DNA from: Olsenella timonensis
GTDB taxonomy: Bacteria > Actinomycetota > Coriobacteriia > Coriobacteriales > Atopobiaceae
NCBI RefSeq assembly: GCF_900119915.1
Contig: NZ_LT635455.1
Span: forward strand, 1,922,001 to 1,986,000
Length of the DNA: 64,000 nucleotides
Direction: 5' to 3'
Shown: positions 3,723 to 39,632 of the stretch, piece by piece
Layout: every line of letters starts with the position of its first letter
How positions within the stretch are numbered: the first letter of the stretch is position 1
Made by a program: the position numbers and the translations under genes
The notes under the pieces: model-generated
The model's database searches: none
The model's input: the letters and a program-made list of their open reading frames with translations, nothing else
Told to the model about the DNA's origin: nothing

Positions 3723-3800
3723 CGCTCGTGAATTCACGAGCGCCCCGTTTTGCCCCCAAAGCCGACAAGAACCCCCGCTCGTGAATTCACGTGCGGCATC
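3723..3800. repeat. Double-palindrome element, GTGAATTCAC family (copy 1)
   Basis: Two copies of the palindrome CGCTCGTGAATTCACGAGCG (3723-3742) and its variant (3776-3795) are separated by ~33 nt. The spacer contains GTTTTG, CCCCCAAAGCC and GACAAGAACCC. The same spacer words occur in the copy at 5033-5108, on the other side of the intervening gene, in the same orientation. There is no U-run after either arm, so this is not a standard terminator. It lies 33 nt beyond the stop of the AbiEi/DUF559-like gene. Confidence 0.85.
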
Positions 3801-3833: not shown

Positions 3834-4922
3834 TCACAGCCCGTAGGCCTCCACGGGCACGACGTTCCACCCGTCGTCGACGCCGTCCGTGACGCCAGCC
3901 TCGTCCGCGGCGTTTCTCGCCCGCTCGCGCGCCCGGCCGTCCCAGCGCACGCCGTCGATGAGCTCAAGCTCCTCATAGAGCTGCTGCCGCAGCGCCCTCC
4001 CGCGCTCGGCCTCCCCCGGCTCGAGCATCTCCGGCGGAAGACCAAGCTCCCCGCGAATCCGCGCCACGAGGCCATCCATGTAGGTCAGGTCCTTGTACTG
4101 CCGCCTGGCCACGATGAACTCAACAAAGCCCATGGCCACGAGCTCGTTGTGGCGCTCGATGTCGCGCGCGTGCTGCGGCTCCTCCTCGTGGTCCCGCCCG
4201 TCGTACTCCACGGCGACGCCCCTTCCGCGCCGGCCGCGGGCGCGCAGCAGAATGTCGGGCTTGCGCACGCCCACGCTCATGGCGTCGCGGATGCGACGCA
4301 CCTCGACGGGGTCGTTCATCGAGAGGACCTTGAGGCCCCACCCGCCCATCCTCGGCGGGAGGCCCAGCCGCAGCGAGAGCTTGGTCTCGCGCGGAGATGC
4401 CGAACTCACGCACGCCTTGCCCAGGGCCCGCCTCACCATCCCCGCCCCGCGCACGGGTCCGAGTCTGGCGAGAAACGCGCGGATCCTGTCTGGCGTCGTC
4501 AGCGGCTCACGCCGCCGCCACATCCCCTTCTCGTGCTGCGGGGCAATCGCGTATGTTCCGAGCAGCTCAGACAGCAGGCAGATCAGCTCGAGCTCGGTGA
4601 GCGCTGGGGCCATGAGGACGGGCAGCAGCTCGGGCGATGCCGCGCGCACGCCCGGCATGAGCTCAACCACCGAGCCGGCGGGCAGCTCTGCCGACATGAC
4701 GTGTGTGCGCACGAGGTCGTTGTTGATCCGCGCCGACGCTGCGGAAACGAGCAGCTCGACGGGCCCGGCAAGGCTGGCGAGCAGCCGGCTGCGCGCCAGC
4801 AGTGCCTCCATCTCCGAGCGCGTTGAAGCACGGCACGGAACGACGGCCTCGGCGTCTCGCCACTGCACGTCCGGCCGACGGAACACCTCGAGCGCGCTGG
4901 TATGTGTCAAGAGCAAATCCAT
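3834..4922 (-). CDS. AbiEi/DUF559-like protein with PD-(D/E)XK nuclease fold (paralogue A)
   Basis: A 362-residue protein of no known specific role. The middle (HVMSAELPAGSVVEL, AASPELLPVLMA) resembles the regulatory module of actinobacterial AbiEi-type proteins. The C-terminal half carries PD-(D/E)XK-like residues: Glu in SPRETKLSLRLGLP, Asp in KPDILL, and VEYDGRDH followed by RHNELVAMG, as in DUF559/Vsr-like endonucleases. It is a full-length paralogue of the 20907-21875 product (same SPxE, PP..GG.G, EYD..xH and MG landmarks). No ribosome site precedes the ATG. A TAATGT hexamer ends 6 nt before it, so the mRNA may be leaderless. Direct copies of a palindromic repeat flank the gene on both sides. 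Nuclease activity and DNA target are inference. Confidence 0.8.
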   Translation of the reverse strand: MDLLLTHTSALEVFRRPDVQWRDAEAVVPCRASTRSEMEALLARSRLLASLAGPVELLVSAASARINNDLVRTHVMSAELPAGSVVELMPGVRAASPELLPVLMAPALTELELICLLSELLGTYAIAPQHEKGMWRRREPLTTPDRIRAFLARLGPVRGAGMVRRALGKACVSSASPRETKLSLRLGLPPRMGGWGLKVLSMNDPVEVRRIRDAMSVGVRKPDILLRARGRRGRGVAVEYDGRDHEEEPQHARDIERHNELVAMGFVEFIVARRQYKDLTYMDGLVARIRGELGLPPEMLEPGEAERGRALRQQLYEELELIDGVRWDGRARERARNAADEAGVTDGVDDGWNVVPVEAYGL

Positions 4923-5032: not shown

Positions 5033-5108
5033 TCGCTCGTGAATTCATATGCGACAGTTTTTGGCCTCAAAGCCGACAAGAACCCACGCTCGTGAATTCA
5101 TATGCGGC
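5033..5108. repeat. Double-palindrome element, GTGAATTCAC family (copy 2)
   Basis: Arms CTCGTGAATTCATATGCG at 5036-5053 and again from 5089 share GTGAATTCA with copy 1. The spacer (GTTTTTGGCCTCAAAGCC, then GACAAGAACCC) matches the spacer of 3723-3800 closely. The two copies are in direct orientation about 1.3 kb apart and bracket a single gene. Confidence 0.85.
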
Positions 5109-5158
5109 ACTCCTCCGACGCCGCATGCGCCGTCGGCACCCACTCCGCCGCGTCCCAA

Positions 5159-5195
5159 TGCGACAGTGTCGTTTTCCTGTCGCGACACTGTCGCA
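5159..5195. repeat. CGACANTGTCG paired palindrome (copy 1)
   Basis: Arms CGACAGTGTCG (5161-5171) and CGACACTGTCG (5183-5193) are each palindromes and also pair with each other across TTTTCCTGTCG. Arm starts are exactly 22 nt apart in all four copies in the window. Confidence 0.85.
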
Positions 5196-5240
5196 AGCCG
5201 GAGACGCCGGGACGGCACGAGGCCTGCCTTGACCTCACTC

Positions 5241-5281
5241 CTCACTTCTTGACCTCACATTGTGAGGTCAAGAAGTGAGGT
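5241..5281. repeat. Perfect 41-nt palindrome of the TTAACCTCAC family
   Basis: Arms CCTCACTTCTTGACCTCACA (5241-5260) and its exact inverse (5262-5281) surround one T. The core CCTCACTTCTT recurs at 5339-5394 and 7168-7213. There is no U-run on either side. Confidence 0.85.
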
Positions 5282-5338
5282 TAACAGAGGTAGTCAATCA
5301 AGCCGTTTACCTGCGAAAACGAACCGAGCCACGCTATG

Positions 5339-5394
5339 TTAACCTCACTTTCTAACGTCAGTTTCGCAAAGTGAGGTTAAGAAGTGAGGTTAAC
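5339..5394. repeat. TTAACCTCACTTT hairpin with an extra third arm
   Basis: TTAACCTCACTTT (5339-5351) pairs exactly with AAAGTGAGGTTAA (5368-5380) over a 16-nt loop. A further copy, GAAGTGAGGTTAAC, follows at 5381-5394. The third arm would allow two alternative pairings. Confidence 0.8.
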
Positions 5395-5426
5395 GGGTCC
5401 GGCACCTGTCCCTCCCACCCTCAAAA

Positions 5427-5461
5427 CGACAGTGTCGTTTTCCTGTCGCGACATTGTCGCA
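5427..5461. repeat. CGACANTGTCG paired palindrome (copy 2), at the 3' end of the AlbA_2 gene
   Basis: Arms lie at 5427-5437 and 5449-5459 with the invariant GTTTTCCTGTCG spacer. The element ends 3 nt from the stop codon of the AlbA_2 gene (5464). A sister copy sits just before that gene's start. Confidence 0.85.
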
Positions 5462-5463
5462 AG

Positions 5464-6831
5464 CTACAGGGGCTTATAGCGGTGCGGCCAACCATCGCAC
5501 GCAACGACAAGACGTCTGTCGAGCATCTGTCTGATGTATCGCTGAGCGGTTCTCCTTGTCACATTCAGATATTCTGCAAGCTCCGCGGCGGTTATGCCGC
5601 CATCTCGGTCGGCCAATATCGTAATCGCCTCGTATGCCCCCTCGACTCCCCTTGCTGCGGAAATCGGAGTGGTAGGAACAGAAGCTCGGAAAATATCTCC
5701 GTCCTCAAGGACAGCGGGTTTCCCGCCGTATGCTTGAGAGTACTTCTGAAGGTTCCTCATCCCGCTACCCAACTCCTCGGCATAGCCGATCTGAGAAAAC
5801 ACTCCAGCTATGTTGGGATTCTTCGACACGGGATTGAAGTCAGAAAGCGTCAGTCTACCTTCGTAAATCGAGCGACTCGCGTTCTCGGTACGCAGCTCTC
5901 CACGTTCGATAACCAGCTTTGCAGGGAAGGGGCTGATATACTCGCGATGTATCAAAAGATTTGACACGAGCTCTCTCACGATGATGTCGCGTGCGCTGAC
6001 CCGTTGTCCCGCTTCGACCACAAACCTATCCGGAAGAGCCGACTCTGCAAAATCAACGAGCTTTGGGTAGGCTTCGATGAGATTGCAGCTCAGCGTAATC
6101 CTGTCGTCATAGCGATCGACATTCTCCTTGCGCACGATGGCGTCGGTCCTATAGGCCGGGCACACATCAGAGATTACCTCATCTGTGCCAAAGAGAAGAA
6201 CGGCCGCGAGCGTGTAGCCCTCATCTCCCGTTCTACGGTCCTTCGCAAACAGCTTTGCGCTCCGCAAAAGCTCCTCGTTGCTCATAGAGCCCCATGGGTG
6301 ACCGGGAACCCTCCTTGTTGCAAGGGCCCGCGCCCTTTCGAGCGTTTCCTCCTTAAAGTCCTCAAGGCTTACATAGCGAAATATCCTTCGCTCCGAATAT
6401 TCATTCTGCTTCCTCAAGTAGAGCTGAGAGATCTGTTCGACTCCGACGACCTTGACGTCAGCGTCCGCAATCCTGTCATAGGCAACGCCTTTGAAGGTGT
6501 ATACGGCGGGCCCCATGGGCACCCACACCCTAACAACATTGAGTCCGTTAACCTCAATTGCCTCGGTCTCAACCACGGGAGAGACATTGAATAGCTCAGG
6601 GTTGCTAACGGCGTTGACAACAGCGCGCTGAACAGCACGCAACGCATTCTGCGGAACACCAAGGATATCACCCTTGTCGGTTATCCCAAGAAAGACATTG
6701 CCTCCCTGCCGGTTTGCAAAAGCGCAAATCGTCTCATACACGTCCTGGCCGGGGGCTCCCCCGCAGCGCTTGAATTCGGTCATCAAGCCTTCGCCAAGAC
6801 TGATGCGAGCAGCCAAATCCCTAGCATCCAT
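5464..6831 (-). CDS. AlbA_2 (Schlafen-type) / HATPase_c_4 transcriptional regulator
   Basis: A 455-residue protein of the family annotated as putative DNA-binding or ATP-binding regulators. The N-terminal AlbA_2 domain spans ~10-130 (LMTEFKRCGG, ETICAFANRQGGNVFLGITD). The HATPase_c_4-type region is at ~270-375 (RELVSNLLIHREYISP, GSGMRNLQKY). A C-terminal winged-helix/HTH follows (ITAAELAEYLNVTRRTAQRY). The ATG at 6831 was chosen for the GGGGGCGG ribosome site 4 nt upstream; a longer frame from 6897 would translate through a repeat. CGACANTGTCG elements bracket it at its start and stop, and larger composite repeats do so further out. Base composition is lower in GC than the housekeeping genes, which suggests transfer. 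The target is unknown; autoregulation through the upstream palindromes is inference. Confidence 0.85.
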   Translation of the reverse strand: MDARDLAARISLGEGLMTEFKRCGGAPGQDVYETICAFANRQGGNVFLGITDKGDILGVPQNALRAVQRAVVNAVSNPELFNVSPVVETEAIEVNGLNVVRVWVPMGPAVYTFKGVAYDRIADADVKVVGVEQISQLYLRKQNEYSERRIFRYVSLEDFKEETLERARALATRRVPGHPWGSMSNEELLRSAKLFAKDRRTGDEGYTLAAVLLFGTDEVISDVCPAYRTDAIVRKENVDRYDDRITLSCNLIEAYPKLVDFAESALPDRFVVEAGQRVSARDIIVRELVSNLLIHREYISPFPAKLVIERGELRTENASRSIYEGRLTLSDFNPVSKNPNIAGVFSQIGYAEELGSGMRNLQKYSQAYGGKPAVLEDGDIFRASVPTTPISAARGVEGAYEAITILADRDGGITAAELAEYLNVTRRTAQRYIRQMLDRRLVVACDGWPHRYKPL

Positions 6832-6843
6832 GTCCGCCCCCAA

Positions 6844-6880
6844 TGCGACAGTGTCGTTTTCCTGTCGCGACATTGTCGCG
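6844..6880. repeat. CGACANTGTCG paired palindrome (copy 3), in the AlbA_2 leader
   Basis: Arms CGACAGTGTCG (6846-6856) and CGACATTGTCG (6868-6878) sit 15 nt upstream of the AlbA_2 start codon. They could therefore act as an operator, or as an mRNA hairpin near the ribosome site. Confidence 0.85.
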
Positions 6881-7097
6881 TATGCCCAGTATGTCACCTT
6901 TCAAGCGCTTGGAAAAGCGAGCGTCCGACGTGCTCTGAGGATGATCAAGGCATGGCGGTAAAGTTACCACCGTTAAGAGCAGACCACCTTTTGTAACCTT
7001 CTAGCTGGTCTTTGATGGTCATCAGAGGCATTCTACAAAAGGATGCGGGTCACACGTGCCTGACGAAACGACACGACCCTGTACTCGCGTACGACAG

Positions 7098-7134
7098 TGC
7101 GACAGTGTCGTTTTCCTGTCGCGACATTGTCACA
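7098..7134. repeat. CGACANTGTCG paired palindrome (copy 4)
   Basis: Arms lie at 7100-7110 and 7122-7132. The downstream flank (ACCGGAGACG, then CCGAGGCC and a TTAACCTCAC element) matches the flank of copy 1 at 5195-5240. Together they form ~115-nt composite repeats in direct orientation on either side of the AlbA_2 gene. Confidence 0.8.
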
Positions 7135-7167
7135 AACCGGAGACGTCCGGATGGGCCGAGGCCCGCC

Positions 7168-7213
7168 TTAACCTCACTTCTCGCTTCTTAGCCTCACAAT
7201 GTGAGGTTAACGG
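7168..7213. repeat. TTAACCTCAC hairpin (third copy) followed by a lone GTGAATTCAC palindrome
   Basis: TTAACCTCAC (7168-7177) and GTGAGGTTAA (7201-7210) are inverse arms with an inner GCCTCAC. A single GCGTGAATTCACGTGC palindrome follows at 7239-7254. The interval 6832-7349 otherwise shows no convincing gene. Confidence 0.75.
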
Positions 7214-7349
7214 GAGCCGATCTAACGCTCCGCTATATGCGTGAATTCACGTGCAGAAGAAAGTGAAGGAACTGCTTCGACTCATTTGAGCTCGAGCAAA
7301 GCCCCCCCTACATCACTTCACACGATACCTTTATATACAGGAGGAACTC

Positions 7350-7625
7350 TCAAGCAAATGCCTGCTCATCCTCTGCTGCTTCCTCACGGCGAAGATGACG
7401 GGCAGGGGCAGCCGGCTTCAACACCTTTACGCCAGCAATGTGTTGTGTTGCCGCAGGCCTGGAGAAAAGGGGCATCTCACTCGAGGTAACGCGAATCCGC
7501 GTAATGGTGGGGTAGAAATGTCGAGGGAAGCTTCCGTCGGTTTTCAAGGAGCGAATCTTCTTAAGGCTCACCACGGCGTCAACATCAAGGGCCGACGCGT
7601 CTTCGCTACTCTGCTTCATACTCAA
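7350..7625 (-). CDS. Small hypothetical protein overlapping the membrane-protein gene
   Basis: A 91-residue frame starts ATGAGTATGAAG inside the last 20 nt of the upstream membrane-protein gene, an arrangement typical of coupled genes. The product is unrecognised. It has an acidic start (SSEDASALDVDAVVSLKK), a Pro/Arg-rich middle (FPRHFYPTITRIRVTSSE) and a charged tail. No signal peptide or membrane helix is seen. The C-terminus is poor in structured motifs, so it may be a remnant. The overlap and a reasonable residue composition argue for it; the lack of a recognised homologue argues against. Confidence 0.45.
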   Translation of the reverse strand: MSMKQSSEDASALDVDAVVSLKKIRSLKTDGSFPRHFYPTITRIRVTSSEMPLFSRPAATQHIAGVKVLKPAAPARHLRREEAAEDEQAFA

Positions 7626-8562
7626 TCCCCATATCAGCAGAATCGTCTGGATCGACAGGGATGTCGCTTGCAGACGACTTTAGAACTTCAGTAAGTATAG
7701 TTGATGTCGCACATGAAACAACTTTCATGTAGTCAACATGACGCTCGTCAAACGTACCCACGATCGGAGACATGACATATATAATTCCGTACATCAAATC
7801 TGCCGCACCATCAGCACTTGGAAGATAGTAGTTTAGCCTCGCAACAAGCATGCTGCCCGTAAGTCCATCGACGTTTCTCAGGTTATAGTCCTTGGAGATC
7901 ACTCCGTCCTTCACCGCTTGAGCGATGTCAGGTATAACCCAGACGTCGTTTACCAGAACATCTGGCTCTGTAAGACTCACGAGTATCCTACTCGAAGCAG
8001 TAACGGGCACGCTGTACACCTCGCGTGAGACAGTTGTCCGCGACGAGCGTCCCCTCGTAATGAAGTACGGGGAATCAGAGTCTCCCATGTTGAGCCGAAT
8101 GCTGCAGCAGACGTCGCTACTGCCAGTGAGGGCGTCAAATACGTCTGCGATTCGCGAGCACGCCTCGTTGCAGACCGAGTCAACCAGAAAGTCATCCCGC
8201 CGTATTATGTCCATCTTCTCCTCGTCTTGGAGAAGGTATCTATAGAAGAGCATGAGCTCAAAAAGAGGCGCCACTCGCAGGCTGCTGTCTTTGAGATAGA
8301 ACCTTCGAAGTGTCCATAGAATTACGAAGACCGCCCCGCCGAGCGACGCAATCCACACCGAAACCCACGGCACGAATTCAGGGGGAACCTCCAAGAGCGG
8401 AATTTTCTGAACCCACCATGGCGCGGAGCTGGAGAGAATCGCCGCGGCTATCGCATCTCCAGCCATAGCCCTAAACCGCAGAAGCCAGGGAAGTCGGTTT
8501 GGGGCTACTGAATGAGCATAGTGCTTCGCTCTGGCACCTTTTGAAAGTAGCTCTCTAATCAT
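7606..8562 (-). CDS. Two-helix membrane protein with cytoplasmic GAF-like domain, unknown function
   Basis: About 318 residues. After a basic N-terminus come hydrophobic segments (DAIAAAILSSSAPWW and FVPWVSVWIASLGGAVFVIL) and then a large soluble domain. That domain has alternating strands and helices (RILVSLTEPDVLVNDVWVIP, GSMLVARLNYYLPS, LMYGIIYVMSPIVGTF) that look GAF-like but lack a diagnostic motif. The ATG at 8562 follows GGGGGA closely; a TTG 18 nt upstream is the alternative. Base composition is AT-richer than the core genome, as in the rest of this island. A strong hairpin lies behind it at 8581-8610. A sensor role is possible but not shown. Confidence 0.7.
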   Translation of the reverse strand: MIRELLSKGARAKHYAHSVAPNRLPWLLRFRAMAGDAIAAAILSSSAPWWVQKIPLLEVPPEFVPWVSVWIASLGGAVFVILWTLRRFYLKDSSLRVAPLFELMLFYRYLLQDEEKMDIIRRDDFLVDSVCNEACSRIADVFDALTGSSDVCCSIRLNMGDSDSPYFITRGRSSRTTVSREVYSVPVTASSRILVSLTEPDVLVNDVWVIPDIAQAVKDGVISKDYNLRNVDGLTGSMLVARLNYYLPSADGAADLMYGIIYVMSPIVGTFDERHVDYMKVVSCATSTILTEVLKSSASDIPVDPDDSADMGIEYEAE

Positions 8563-8580
8563 GGTCCCCCGCTTAAGCAA

Positions 8581-9168: not shown

Positions 9169-12100
9169 TTAGGCGTTGTCGCGGTCGTTGCCGAGGACCT
9201 TGTCCTCATAGCCGAGCAGGCTGGACGTGAACTTGCGGCGACGCACGCCCACGCCGACGAAGTACACGGCGCTGAGGATCATGCCGAGCAGGATGAGCCA
9301 GTGGACCCAGCAGTCCTCGTCCTTGGCGCCAGCCGCGAGCGGCGTATCGTCGTCACCGATGGTGTCGGTGGGCGCGGCAAGGGCGTTCTCGTCGTCGGCG
9401 ATGGTCTCCTCGGGCGCGGCCTCATCGGTCGTCGTGTCGTCAGCCGGGGTCACGGTCGCGGGCGTACCAGGGGTCGGAGTGCCGTCCCCACCGCCGCCAG
9501 GCGTCGGGGTCGGGGTGTCGCCGCCACCAGGCGTCACAGGAGTCGCGACGATGGTGAAGGTGCCCTCGTTCACAACCAGGATGTAGTTCTGGGCAAGGAA
9601 GTTGCCGGCGGGGTTGTCCGCGAGCTGGAGGCTACCCTTGGAGATGGTGTAAGTGCCCACCGCCTCGCCGGGCTCACGCGTGAGCGCGCCGGTCCAGCCG
9701 GCAGTCTCGCCACGGAGATAGCCGCTGTAATCGGAGGTGAGCGTCGGGTCGGCCTGGCCCTGGGTCTTGCGGATGTCACGCGGCGTGACCGTGATGGTCA
9801 GAGGCGTGATCTGGTAGTAACGCTCGACGGAGCCGGTGTAGTTGCCCTTGCCGGTGATGGTGACCTTGATGGTACCGGTGACGTTGGTGCGGTCGGAGGT
9901 GGAGTAAGTCACCTCGTAGTCCGTGCCAGCGACAAGAACCTTCTCGCCGTCGGTCACCGTGGGAGCCCAGGTCTGGTTGGTGCCGTTGTACGGGACGTCC
10001 TGCGGACTATTAACCGTAACCTCCGGACCGCTGATATCAATATGCGTCAGAGTCCAGGTGCCGGTGATCTCCTTGTCGCCGGTGACCTCGAAGTCGCCCG
10101 TGCTCCAGCCGGAGAAGGTCCAGGTGCCGTACTCGTTCTGGAAGGTGGCGCCCGCGGCGTAGGTCTTGTCGACCTCGAAGGTCTCGCCGGCCGTCACCTC
10201 GTAGGCGGCGCCGTCGTTGGGCAGCGTGGCCTTGTGCTCGACGCCCTCGCCGTCGGTCCAGGGGTTGGAGCCCTTGAGGCCGGACCAGCTGTACTTGACC
10301 GCGTAGGTGGCCTCGTCGCCCTCCTCGATCGTCCAGGTGCCGGTGATCTCCTTGTCGCCGGTGACCTCGAAGTCGCCCGTGCTCCAGCCGGAGAAGGTCC
10401 AGGTGCCGTACTCGTTCTGGAAGGTGGCGCCCGCGGCGTAGGTCTTGTCGACCTCGAAGGTCTCGCCGGCCGTCACCTCGTAGGCGGCGCCGTCGTTGGG
10501 CAGCGTGGCCTTGTGCTCGACGCCCTCGCCGTCGGTCCAGGGGTTGGAGCCCTTGAGGCCGGACCAGCTGTACTTGACCGCGTAGGTGGCCTCGTCGCCC
10601 TCCTCGATCGTCCAGGTGCCGGTGATCTCCTTGTCGCCGGTGACCTCGAAGTCGCCCGTGCTCCAGCCGGAGAAGGTCCAGGTGCCGTACTCGTTCTGGA
10701 AGGTGGCGCCCGCGGCGTAGGTCTTGTCGACCTCGAAGGTCTCGCCGGCCGTCACCTCGTAGGCGGCGCCGTCGTTGGGCAGCGTGGCCTTGTGCTCGAC
10801 GCCCTCGCCGTCGGTCCAGGGGTTGGAGCCCTTGAGGCCGGACCAGCTGTAGGAGACCTTGTAGGTCCGTGCTACCTGGACAACAATTGTGATGTCGCCA
10901 TTTACCGTTTGAGCCGGGTAGGCATATTCGGTTTTTCCTGCATTGTCGCCGGTCTGATCCTGGCCGTTGACGGTTATCTTCTCAATCTTATAGCCATCCG
11001 GGATGTCAAACGATATCGCTTCTGACTGCTCCCCCTGCTTCACGCTCTGCGTTGAGGGCGACACTATGGCACCTTCAACGGGTGCGCCTTCATTGTCCAC
11101 GATTGAGGCGGTAATATTATATTTGTTTACATACTTCGTATAAAACGTCAGGTCATCACCGATAAGGTTTATATCGCCCGACTCCAGGCGCTTCCCAGAC
11201 TCATCAACCCAGCACTCAAAATCCTCGAGCGAAGACGTATCGGGAATCTGATTCTCATATACCGTTCCCATGTCCTCGACGACATAGGACGCCATCACAT
11301 CACCAGTAGCAGTATCAATGAAGCGCACGTTGTGATAAACGCCCGCACGATAAATAACACCGTCGACGTGATAACCGTCGTCTTGGTTCTTAGCAACGTA
11401 CCAACGAACGGCCTGCGCCTCATCCAGAGAGATATTGAGAATGCTCGCTATCTGCGTGGGGCTGGGGGCCGAGACGATGAGCTCTGAGATGTTGTTGCTT
11501 TTATCCTCAGTGCCGTTGGGATAGACGTTGTTTTGAGATCCAGAGTCAAACAGCTCGCTGTTGATGCTGCCGGTACCGACCGAGTAATAGCTCCCCGCGT
11601 TACCGAAGGCAGCATTGTCCGCCTTAAGCACGAAAAACTGGGCGTAGGTAGCGTTATTGTCAAACCAAGGGCGTACCTCAATGATTATTTGGTTATGTCC
11701 ATACGCGCGATACTCTGACGTCGTGATCGTCTCATTGAACGCATAGTACTCACCGTCATGCTGCCATCCGCGCAGGTTCGGGGAGTCAGATTCAATCGTG
11801 TCCTGGTTGTTGCCCAAGACAAACGTGTAGGTAGCCTGACCGTTCCTCCAGCTTCGGAATGCTGTGGTTTGCTTATCTACGCAGCTGTTTCCGGATTGAT
11901 TCTTGTAATACCGAACCGTTACGGTGGTCTGGTTGCCGATCTCAATCTTGTTGCCCCATACGGCGTAGAGGGTCAGGTTGGATTCCATCGTTACTTCGGC
12001 GCCGGGATCATACGCGGAATCCGGCTCCGTCGCGTTGGGGTCCGTGCTCCACCCAAGAAACTCGTAGTTTGCGAGCGTCATATCCCCGGCAATTGTTGCT

Positions 12101-13539
12101 CTACTTCCCGGCTCATAGGTATAAACCGCATTTGTCTCGACAGCGTCCTCGAGCTTTATGTTTCCGGCGTTGCCATTTTCGTAGACGATCTTCTTGGCAT
12201 CGCTGGGGTAGTTCGAGTTGTAGACCAGCCTATACGTCGCCGGCGATACGACATATATTGTAGCGGTGTCACTCGCGCTACCGTTTCTCGCCGTAATCGT
12301 GGCCACGCCGGTCTGATGGGTCGTCACAAGGCCGTTCTGATCAACCGTCGCCACGCGCTCGTCAGAAGACGACCAGGTGACGCTCGAGCCCGCAGGTGTA
12401 GCGGTCGCAGTCAGCTGGCCTTCATCGCCAAGGGTGATCTGGAGGGATTCTTCGGTGATGTCAACGGTAGGAGCAGGCGTTACCTGAACCGTGAAATACT
12501 CTTCCTCCCAGTTCCAAGCTGCAGTTGCCTTGTATTCGTGCTTCAGAGTTACAGTACCCTCAGAGACGCCCGTAACTCTAACGGTTTGGCCATCAATATT
12601 GGCCAGCCTTACCTGACCGTCTCCGGAATCTACACTCCATTTATGCTGTGGAATCCACCCATCGGTGGAGCCATTTATCGAAATGGTCCCCCCAACTTCA
12701 ACCGTAAAGTCCACTGCTCGAGCGGCCATCGTCGAGGTGCCGTTGTTCGCGGCAGGGGTCTCGCTCTCGGAGGCGTCCTCGGTGGTCGCTGCTTCGTCCT
12801 CGGTCGGCTCGGTAGCCTCCTCGGGCTCGACGGGGGTCGCGTCCTCGGCGGGCTCCTCCGTCGGGGCGGCCTCGGTCGTGACGACGATCTTCTCGCCGTC
12901 GGTCAGGTCGGCGGCGGCGATGGTGTACTCGCCGCTTTCGTTGGCGGCGAGCTCCGCGCCGGCGTAGGCGACGGAGGAAACCTTCTGACCGTCGTCAGGG
13001 GCAACCGTAAACGTGAAGTCGAGGGTGTTGGAAACGTCAACGGACTTGGGATCCGTCTCGGACGTGACGCTCTTCTCGGTGCCGTCCTGTGCTCTGTACT
13101 TCAGCGTCGCGGCGGAGACCTCAACGTTGAGGGTGACGGTGGTGTCGGTCTCCTCTGCGGGCGCCTGCTCGGACTGGGCCTGATCGGACTGACCGTCCGG
13201 AGTCGTCGCCTCGGTGTCCTGTGCCGTGGTCTCGACGGGGTTCTCCTCCGTCTCGGCCACCGTCTGCTCGGCATCGTCCTGTGAGGACGCCTGCTCGTCG
13301 GTGGTGTCGGTCTCCTCCGGGGTCGTCACCTCCCCCTGGGTGCCCGTGTCCTCGGCGGCCGGGTCCATGACGACCTCGTCGCGGCCCTCGGACCCGCCGG
13401 AGGCCAGGACGTCGGCGAACGCCTGGATGTTGGACGACTGCATCACGAGGACGACGCTGAGGAAGACCGCCAGTATGGTCTTCCACCTCTTCTTCGCCTC
13501 TTGACGCCTGAGGTGCTTGCCCTCATGCCTCTCGTTCAT
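9169..13539 (-). CDS. Giant membrane-anchored surface adhesin with BIG2, SHIRT-like repeats and MBG domain
   Basis: About 1456 residues. A long positive N-terminus and hydrophobic signal (TILAVFLSVVLVMQSSN, cleavage near IQAFA) are followed by an acidic Thr/Glu stalk to ~275. Next come a BIG2 Ig-like domain ~360-433 (TWSSSDERVATVDQNG), an InlB/Listeria-Bacteroides-type repeat ~437-530 (YEFLGWSTDPN), a central unassigned region, three SHIRT-like domains ~890-1163 (GTWTFSGWSTGDFEV), an MBG-type domain ~1170-1325 and a Pro/Thr/Gly linker. It ends in one membrane helix and a basic tail (VGVGVRRRKF) with no LPXTG. The ATG at 13539 has GAGGGAG upstream. The middle of the gene (about 10.86-12.7 kb) is visibly AT-richer than both ends, suggesting mosaic assembly. 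Role: surface adhesion, inferred. Confidence 0.9.
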   Translation of the reverse strand: MNERHEGKHLRRQEAKKRWKTILAVFLSVVLVMQSSNIQAFADVLASGGSEGRDEVVMDPAAEDTGTQGEVTTPEETDTTDEQASSQDDAEQTVAETEENPVETTAQDTEATTPDGQSDQAQSEQAPAEETDTTVTLNVEVSAATLKYRAQDGTEKSVTSETDPKSVDVSNTLDFTFTVAPDDGQKVSSVAYAGAELAANESGEYTIAAADLTDGEKIVVTTEAAPTEEPAEDATPVEPEEATEPTEDEAATTEDASESETPAANNGTSTMAARAVDFTVEVGGTISINGSTDGWIPQHKWSVDSGDGQVRLANIDGQTVRVTGVSEGTVTLKHEYKATAAWNWEEEYFTVQVTPAPTVDITEESLQITLGDEGQLTATATPAGSSVTWSSSDERVATVDQNGLVTTHQTGVATITARNGSASDTATIYVVSPATYRLVYNSNYPSDAKKIVYENGNAGNIKLEDAVETNAVYTYEPGSRATIAGDMTLANYEFLGWSTDPNATEPDSAYDPGAEVTMESNLTLYAVWGNKIEIGNQTTVTVRYYKNQSGNSCVDKQTTAFRSWRNGQATYTFVLGNNQDTIESDSPNLRGWQHDGEYYAFNETITTSEYRAYGHNQIIIEVRPWFDNNATYAQFFVLKADNAAFGNAGSYYSVGTGSINSELFDSGSQNNVYPNGTEDKSNNISELIVSAPSPTQIASILNISLDEAQAVRWYVAKNQDDGYHVDGVIYRAGVYHNVRFIDTATGDVMASYVVEDMGTVYENQIPDTSSLEDFECWVDESGKRLESGDINLIGDDLTFYTKYVNKYNITASIVDNEGAPVEGAIVSPSTQSVKQGEQSEAISFDIPDGYKIEKITVNGQDQTGDNAGKTEYAYPAQTVNGDITIVVQVARTYKVSYSWSGLKGSNPWTDGEGVEHKATLPNDGAAYEVTAGETFEVDKTYAAGATFQNEYGTWTFSGWSTGDFEVTGDKEITGTWTIEEGDEATYAVKYSWSGLKGSNPWTDGEGVEHKATLPNDGAAYEVTAGETFEVDKTYAAGATFQNEYGTWTFSGWSTGDFEVTGDKEITGTWTIEEGDEATYAVKYSWSGLKGSNPWTDGEGVEHKATLPNDGAAYEVTAGETFEVDKTYAAGATFQNEYGTWTFSGWSTGDFEVTGDKEITGTWTLTHIDISGPEVTVNSPQDVPYNGTNQTWAPTVTDGEKVLVAGTDYEVTYSTSDRTNVTGTIKVTITGKGNYTGSVERYYQITPLTITVTPRDIRKTQGQADPTLTSDYSGYLRGETAGWTGALTREPGEAVGTYTISKGSLQLADNPAGNFLAQNYILVVNEGTFTIVATPVTPGGGDTPTPTPGGGGDGTPTPGTPATVTPADDTTTDEAAPEETIADDENALAAPTDTIGDDDTPLAAGAKDEDCWVHWLILLGMILSAVYFVGVGVRRRKFTSSLLGYEDKVLGNDRDNA
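10052..10851 (-). repeat. Three identical 279-bp tandem repeats inside the adhesin
   Basis: Units begin at 10052, 10331 and 10610, exactly 279 bp (93 codons) apart. The third is truncated at 10851, where identity stops abruptly. I saw no base differences among units. Such identity indicates recent expansion or gene conversion and predicts copy-number variation between strains. Confidence 0.92.
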
Positions 13540-14273
13540 ACGAACCACTCCCTCAACGTCTTGGGCACCACCTGACGCTGTCCGCTTACATTCAGCTGAC
13601 TTGCAGACACTTGACAGATGTCTCCCTCTGACTATTCCAACGCAATGTAACACAGATTAGGGGGAGGGGTGACATCTTTTCTTACGTGGCTGGTATTAAA
13701 TTGTGCAGCCTAGGGTATGTATCTATTTTAATATTTAATGTGCTTATCGGTTGACACTTTTCTTCAATAGATGATTTACCTGCGCTTTATTTGACTTTCA
13801 AATCCCTGAAGGTGGGGTTGAGAGTTCACGTATTTTTTGTGTACCTCTTTGTTGACTATTTCGGCATACGGCGACTTCTGCTCGGCGAGGAAATAGTGGG
13901 GAGGGGGGTCTATCGTTACCGGGCCCGTGATCGAGGGCTCTCCGACAGAGAACGGGGCTTCGGGCACGCGACGTCGCTCGCCCGCAAGAAGCGCCACCCG
14001 CCGAATGGTCCTATAAGATTGCCTCGCTTCTAGAGCGAGCAGCAGTGACTTCGCCGGACCTCGCGCCTCTGCGGACGTCCTCCTGCAGGCGCATGAAGGC
14101 CGACATGGTGTCGCAGAGGCGATGCTGGGCGACATTAAGGTTGCCTCGGCAGATTACCTGGGAGCTGCGCTCGGGCGCATACCCCTGAACGCCGGCGTCC
14201 TCTTTGTGGGCAACCAGCCTACGGCGAGGATGTCCCGTGGCCGCGCGCATCGAGGGTGGCTGCGCGGCGAAGT

Positions 14274-14347
14274 GCCGCTCGTGAATTCACGAGCGGCAGG
14301 ATTATGGCGAAAACGCCGCTTGAGGCGGCGCTCGTGAATTCACGGGC
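14274..14347. repeat. Double-palindrome element, GTGAATTCAC family (copy 3)
   Basis: The left arm is a perfect 24-nt palindrome (14274-14297, GCCGCTCGTGAA and its inverse). The right arm GCGCTCGTGAATTCACGGGC spans 14328-14347. The spacer has its own small hairpin, GGCGAAAACGCC. Confidence 0.85.
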
Positions 14348-39551: not shown

Positions 39552-39632
39552 GGCCGCTCGTGAATTCACGAGCGCACGCGCGCCCCGACTTTTGACGCGT
39601 AGGGGGCCGCACGTGAATTCACGAGCGACCCC
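39552..39632. repeat. Double-palindrome element, GTGAATTCAC family (copy 4)
   Basis: CCGCTCGTGAATTCACGAGC (39554-39573) and GCACGTGAATTCACGAGC (39609-39626) are separated by ~35 nt including CCCCGACTTTTGACG. Outer GGGGCC/GGGGG and CCCCC tracts add pairing. It occupies most of the intergenic gap between purD and the NUDIX gene. Confidence 0.85.

Follow-up and report, generated by a model that had tools for sequence, protein, structure and literature searches.

The window analyzed here, a stretch of 64,000 nucleotides from Olsenella timonensis, contains an AlbA_2 regulator gene nested in two layers of repeats, which raises the question of whether these repeats serve the gene as regulatory sites or mark the ends of a mobile unit. 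We consider it probable that this AlbA_2 (COG2865-like) gene was acquired and regulates itself through private operators placed at either end, and that it is located on the operator scar of a different, earlier AlbA_2 module. An acquired module carrying its own operators was one of the two origins put forward in the original prediction, and it is well supported by the low G+C content, a repeat unique to the locus in this genome, repeats at both ends of the orthologues, and a locus that varies among relatives.

The gene is translated from an ATG at 6831 to a TAG stop codon at 5464-5466 on the minus strand; this start was preferred to a longer GTG frame because it is supported by the alignment of homologues. 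With 54.5% G+C, as opposed to 67.1% for the window, the gene is indeed AT-richer, as had been noted. Pfam profile searches identified an SLFN_AlbA_2 domain (PF04326; 55.2 bits, cut-off 25.3) and a C-terminal winged HTH (HTH_11; 30.9 bits, cut-off 25) in the 455-aa protein, and the HTH helices and wing strands are found at residues 396-454 of an AlphaFold model built with 38 homologues (mean pLDDT 87, pTM 0.60). The HATPase_c_4/RecG-C-like (GHKL) region scored 23.4 bits, under the cut-off of 26, and contains three invariant residues (E287, N291, and G357) as well as H295, present in 36 of 38 homologues. A search of solved structures by sequence gave no match, and a fold search with the model returned 3LMM as the closest solved fold (E 2.5e-22), ahead of a RecG-related N-domain and Schlafen proteins. 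3LMM, the uncharacterized DIP2311 from Corynebacterium diphtheriae, is a COG2865-type protein with what appears to be the same order of AlbA_2, GHKL/RecG-C-like, and winged-HTH domains. Candidate Schlafen-type carboxylates are conserved (E19 in 38/38, E14 in 36/38, and D/E at position 52 in 36/38 homologues), and E14, E19, and D52 fall at the positions of the Schlafen catalytic triad, a correspondence by motif position only. The AlbA_2 lobe is shared with the human Schlafen RNases (SLFN13, PMC5862951); the protein described here differs in combining one such lobe with a GHKL-like domain and a winged HTH. PADLOC models for defense systems gave weak, partial matches only. A phage or plasmid source was likewise considered and set aside, with distant homologues only (≤42% identity) and none in the viral contigs scanned.

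The original prediction placed repeat elements at the stop (5427) and the start (6844) of the gene and composite direct repeats of ~115 nt beyond them. Both were recovered, the former as the inner units of Table 1 and the latter as two 116-nt repeats that are 85% identical. The underlying sequence, CGACANTGTCG, occurs in seven exact copies in the window, all confined to 5161-7110, where 0.17 would be expected and none of 100 shuffles reached seven; one further copy (7122-7132) deviates by a single mismatch. No exact copy of this 11-mer was found outside the AlbA_2 locus in the complete genome of 2,176,737 bp. Between 5161 and 7132 the copies assemble into four 33-bp units in identical orientation (CGACANTGTCG-TTTTCCTGTCG-CGACANTGTCG), hereafter type A, with the pattern CGACA-n1/3-TGTCG-n6/7-TGTCGCGACA-n1-TGTCG. 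In the composite repeats, the outer units are fused to arrays of TTAACCTCAC (type B), the left array being part of a longer repeat of ~165 bp of which the right side holds only a fragment. A genome-wide count placed the type-B repeat at the AlbA_2 locus and nowhere else. A partial match to the composite repeat elsewhere in the genome, at position 911254, falls within coding sequence and is apparently due to chance. The interval between the two upstream operators (6879-7099) is ~220 nt long, compared with 70-90 nt in relatives, and contains CCTTTTGTA/TACAAAAGG inverted repeats.

Table 1. Positions of the AlbA_2 gene and of the repeats and predicted sites around it (window coordinates).
Feature	Position	Strand	Remarks
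REP-like CGTGAATTCA pair	5036..5105	.	Left boundary of the module; the type-B module of G097 has a similar pair at its boundary
Left composite direct repeat	5156..5271	+	Type-A operator, GGAGACG/GAGGCC, and part of the type-B repeat
Outer left type-A operator (predicted)	5161..5193	+	CGACANTGTCG unit
Full solo type-B (TTAACCTCAC) promoter/operator repeat (predicted)	5229..5397	+	Matches the repeats bracketing the G097 type-B gene
Inner left type-A operator (predicted)	5427..5459	+	4 nt past the AlbA_2 stop codon
SLFN_AlbA_2/RecG-C-like/winged-HTH regulator gene	5464..6831	-	455 aa, ATG start
Inner right type-A operator (predicted)	6846..6878	+	14 nt upstream of the ATG, between the putative -10 and the ATG
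Putative extended -10 TGACATACT	6888..6896	-	Resembles TGGTATACT at the corresponding position of orthologues; missed by the consensus scan
Right composite direct repeat	7095..7210	+	Partner of 5156-5271
Outer right type-A operator (predicted)	7100..7132	+	CGACANTGTCG unit, one mismatch
Partial type-B repeat	7168..7213	+	Fragment of the ~165-bp repeat
Single REP-like CGTGAATTCA element	7240..7254	.	Right boundary of the module

Orthologues from other genera with 55-58% identity carry CGACANTGTCG-type sites at both promoter and stop. Across these genomes the half-sites CGACA/TGTCG are invariant, with TGTCA variants as the only exceptions (two in the G046 and G124 stop copies, one in the outer right unit of the window), and the spacer of 6-7 nt varies from genome to genome, as would be expected of a site that binds a protein. 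When the promoter and stop copies of the same gene were compared, 2 of 125 half-site positions differed against 21 of 50 spacer positions (P=2e-11), although the effective sample is smaller because G046 and G124 are nearly identical. The predicted operator next to the start lies between the inferred promoter and the start codon; the site is conserved with the orthologues and absent elsewhere in the genome. A consensus scan found no sigma-70 promoter at the AlbA_2 locus; such scans are consensus-based and uninformative here, and the promoter position is the one inferred in Table 1. In five orthologues examined (G046, G062, G072, G074, and G124), the stop codon itself forms the spacer of a CGACA-TGA/TAG-TGTCG palindrome, and the proteins therefore end in Ala-Thr (GCG-ACA-TGA-TGTCG); the five are related to one another, with G046 and G124 almost identical, and do not represent independent events.

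A scan for terminators reported terminator-like hairpins on the plus strand at 5160, 6845, and 7099, and the 3' palindromes might thus be transcription terminators instead of protein-binding sites. The hairpins point against the gene, however, and have stems of 5 bp, the same unit also occurs between promoter and ATG, a place at which termination would shut the gene off, and it is the half-site pattern and not the T-rich spacer that is conserved across genomes. We regard terminators as very improbable, and the CGACANTGTCG unit is best described as a private, operator-like site of the clade of the resident gene.

Searching 140 genomes of the family for the type-A operator gave 30 places in 19 genomes from seven genera, and the reversed-pattern control gave none. 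For 21 of these, a gene of the resident clade, or a fragment of one, is present within ~1.5 kb. The remaining nine are found in relatives without a neighboring clade gene; within the genome of the window itself, where the composite repeat had been proposed for a search, no such abundance of gene-less sites was encountered. Some of the nine carry remnants of a deleted module. The clearest is L171, which has kept the very 3' end of the gene together with a promoter-like stretch upstream; at L174 the operator adjoins a promoter-like TATACT, and at L185 it lies at the end of the contig. Two solo operators (L064:5348 in G105 and L067:2889 in G103) stand beside sequence resembling the 3' half of a tRNA that may be an integration site, and ARAGORN found no complete tRNA at either. 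In G105, a tyrosine recombinase ORF is close to this operator, and a GGAAG/CTTCC TACTGTGGAAG-like array at ~5500-5620 of L064 resembles the operator of the AlbA_2 gene in L115.

The origin of the type-B layer became apparent from G097, a close relative of the same genus. Its corresponding locus, beside a histidine kinase that is 98% identical, carries a different AlbA_2 gene (type B), flanked on both sides by the ~165-bp repeat with its TTAACCTCAC sites; the paralogue exceeds the HATPase_c_4 cut-off with 47.4 bits. A search for type B at E 1e-40 detected no such gene in the genome of the window. By this comparison, the TTAACCTCAC arrays correspond to the putative promoter-region repeat of another AlbA_2 paralogue, one that G097 has kept at the same locus. 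The two layers of repeats described originally are both real, with the refinement that they appear to be operators of two different AlbA_2 regulators.

Relatives carry a different module or none at the AlbA_2 locus. Both G085 and G104 are without an AlbA_2 gene at the corresponding position, and a related TTAACTTCAC palindrome is present in the gap of G104 and absent from G085; the region differs by other segments too. The simplest reading is that successive modules occupied one locus, with the older one apparently leaving its operator region behind, although the evidence for the composite repeat comes from a single genome and cannot settle the order of events inside it. The comparison suggests that the AlbA_2 locus turns over, with modules being gained, replaced, and lost and operator scars remaining.

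The main rival to a regulatory role is a recombination cassette, in which recombination placed a second copy of the promoter region at the 3' end (repeat-gene-repeat), so that homologous recombination can remove or exchange the gene, and the 3' copy has no regulatory role. The near-identical ~165-bp repeats on both sides of the G097 type-B gene favor it at that locus, where duplication or recombination alone could explain the copying of the whole promoter region. Solo copies where genes are missing also fit, namely the type-B repeat of the window, the TTAACTTCAC palindrome of G104, and the copy in G105, together with a solo copy in G047 that has the 3'-terminal bases of the gene attached. The type-A orthologues, on the other hand, repeat only the operator core at the stop, where the half-sites are conserved and the spacers have drifted apart, and 3' copies mostly begin 0-43 nt after the stop in genes with many different operator sequences. 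Conservation of the half-sites in particular argues against a cassette alone, which we judge to be unlikely. Operators with a regulatory function may at the same time, as repeats, promote loss and exchange of modules by recombination.

The repeat-mobilized unit of the original prediction, understood as transposition, found no support. Direct repeats tied to the gene bracket it, its G+C content is low, and its presence among relatives is patchy, all of which would suit a mobile element with the repeats as its ends and a mobility dependent on the AlbA_2 protein. RAYT/REPtron units are likewise genes bracketed by palindromic elements tied to the gene, but the AlbA_2 module has neither a transposase nor dispersed copies. 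Domain and fold searches of the 455-aa protein gave no transposase or recombinase domain and the repeat is at one locus per genome, and an insertion sequence was rejected on these grounds. In addition, the terminal repeats are direct and not inverted, no target-site duplication was demonstrated, and the promoter region, too, contains the 33-bp unit. A mobile element is accordingly quite improbable.

Dispersed intergenic repeats of the REP or MITE kind could in principle flank the gene by chance, and CGTGAATTCA pairs do adjoin the module. This reading was rejected because the type-A and type-B repeats are confined to the AlbA_2 locus in the genome, and type A moreover tracks the gene family across seven genera; we give it almost no credence. 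The REP-like elements occur as pairs of CTCGTGAATTCA spaced ~53 nt apart, with eight exact pairs in the genome, four of them in the window. In the window, REP-like elements are located at 3724-3794, 5036-5105, 7240-7254, 14277-14347, and 39556-39626, and these elements bound AlbA_2 modules here and in G097 and divide cargo genes in G087.

Repeats shared between promoter and stop are not peculiar to the resident clade. When 200 nt upstream and 120 nt downstream were compared for 78 AlbA_2 genes and 157 control genes from the same loci, 14 of the former and three of the latter shared a repeat (P=2e-5), P values being guides since spurious ORFs occur among the controls and genes related to each other cannot count as independent; mismatched pairs of flanks shared a repeat in 0.5%. 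On inspection, 12 of the 14 were found to have repeats that are palindromic and resemble operators, the first base being 0-21 nt past the stop. The remaining two, L119 (tandem paralogues) and L100 (104 nt away), were not operator-like and were left out. With wider flanks and the type-B relatives included, there are ~10 different candidate operator sequences with a 3' copy of their own kind, among them those of homologues with CGGACA, TGGGACATGTCCCA, TCTGAATTC, TCTCATCTCATTTTC, and TGTCGCATATGCGAC operators. Each 3' copy matches the promoter site of the gene to which it belongs and not a common consensus, and both sites thus appear to follow the changing specificity of the protein. Many family members, for example the TCTGGACA and TTCCTGAA groups, have promoter operators only, and the 3' copy is therefore not essential but a recurrent, not universal, feature. 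In distant homologues from other phyla we found no clear operator bracketing.

For the gene in the window, we propose that the AlbA_2 protein would bind the type-A sites through its C-terminal winged HTH and repress its own promoter. The 3' operator could then act as a second brake, with bound protein halting RNA polymerase no later than the stop codon and giving a truncated mRNA that lacks it, and/or looping to the operator at the promoter. By analogy with the lac system, the 3' operator is probably a transcription roadblock or a loop anchor, two alternatives that sequence data cannot separate. LacI bound at O3 blocks elongation on its own gene and leaves nonstop mRNA, from which an SsrA-tagged, truncated protein results (PMC3711431). 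In both systems the repressor gene has an operator at its 3' end, a predicted one for AlbA_2, for which the roadblock and nonstop mRNA are a proposal; O3 also serves the lac operon, whereas the AlbA_2 site appears dedicated to its own gene and, in orthologues, the predicted operator overlaps the stop codon. The controller protein C.Kpn2I is also an autoregulator, with an elongation roadblock inside its own gene (PMC6237814), as may be the case here, but its site is within the coding region and not upstream of the promoters, and it belongs to another protein family, while the AlbA_2 sites are at promoter and stop. Recombination or deletion between the operator repeats would remove the gene and leave solo operators, and the window may keep traces of two such modules. 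That this is a recurrent design of AlbA_2 regulators, at least in this bacterial family, with a co-evolving private operator copied at or over the stop giving nonstop mRNA, and repeats that let modules swap and leave solo operators as fossils, is a tentative and rather doubtful extension.

AlbA_2/winged-HTH proteins are numerous and uncharacterized, and the literature searched contained neither a described binding site for any of them nor an operator architecture for the COG2865/SLFN_AlbA_2 family. The present gene is bracketed by its own predicted operators. Sequence alone here supplies candidate operators for ~10 AlbA_2 groups, and the 3' copies make possible a cheap and specific test of whether a repressor bound at the stop codon limits its own synthesis via nonstop mRNA. 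Operator scars would in addition let past gene turnover at a locus be traced purely in its non-coding sequence, and would caution annotators against taking such repeats for the ends of mobile elements.

Near the module, a 362-aa ORF without a Pfam match (3834-4922), located between two REP-like pairs, is present at the same place in G087 with 72% identity and missing from G097. The 324-aa ORF at 7606-8580 (51.8% G+C, no family match) is probably also acquired, and the large surface-protein ORF at 9169-13653, with Big_2, SHIRT, MBG_2, and Listeria-Bacteroides repeat domains, is variable among relatives. At least 11 matches to the AlbA_2 protein family were identified in the single 3.2-Mb genome of G041, which makes it suited to the study of operator divergence between paralogues.
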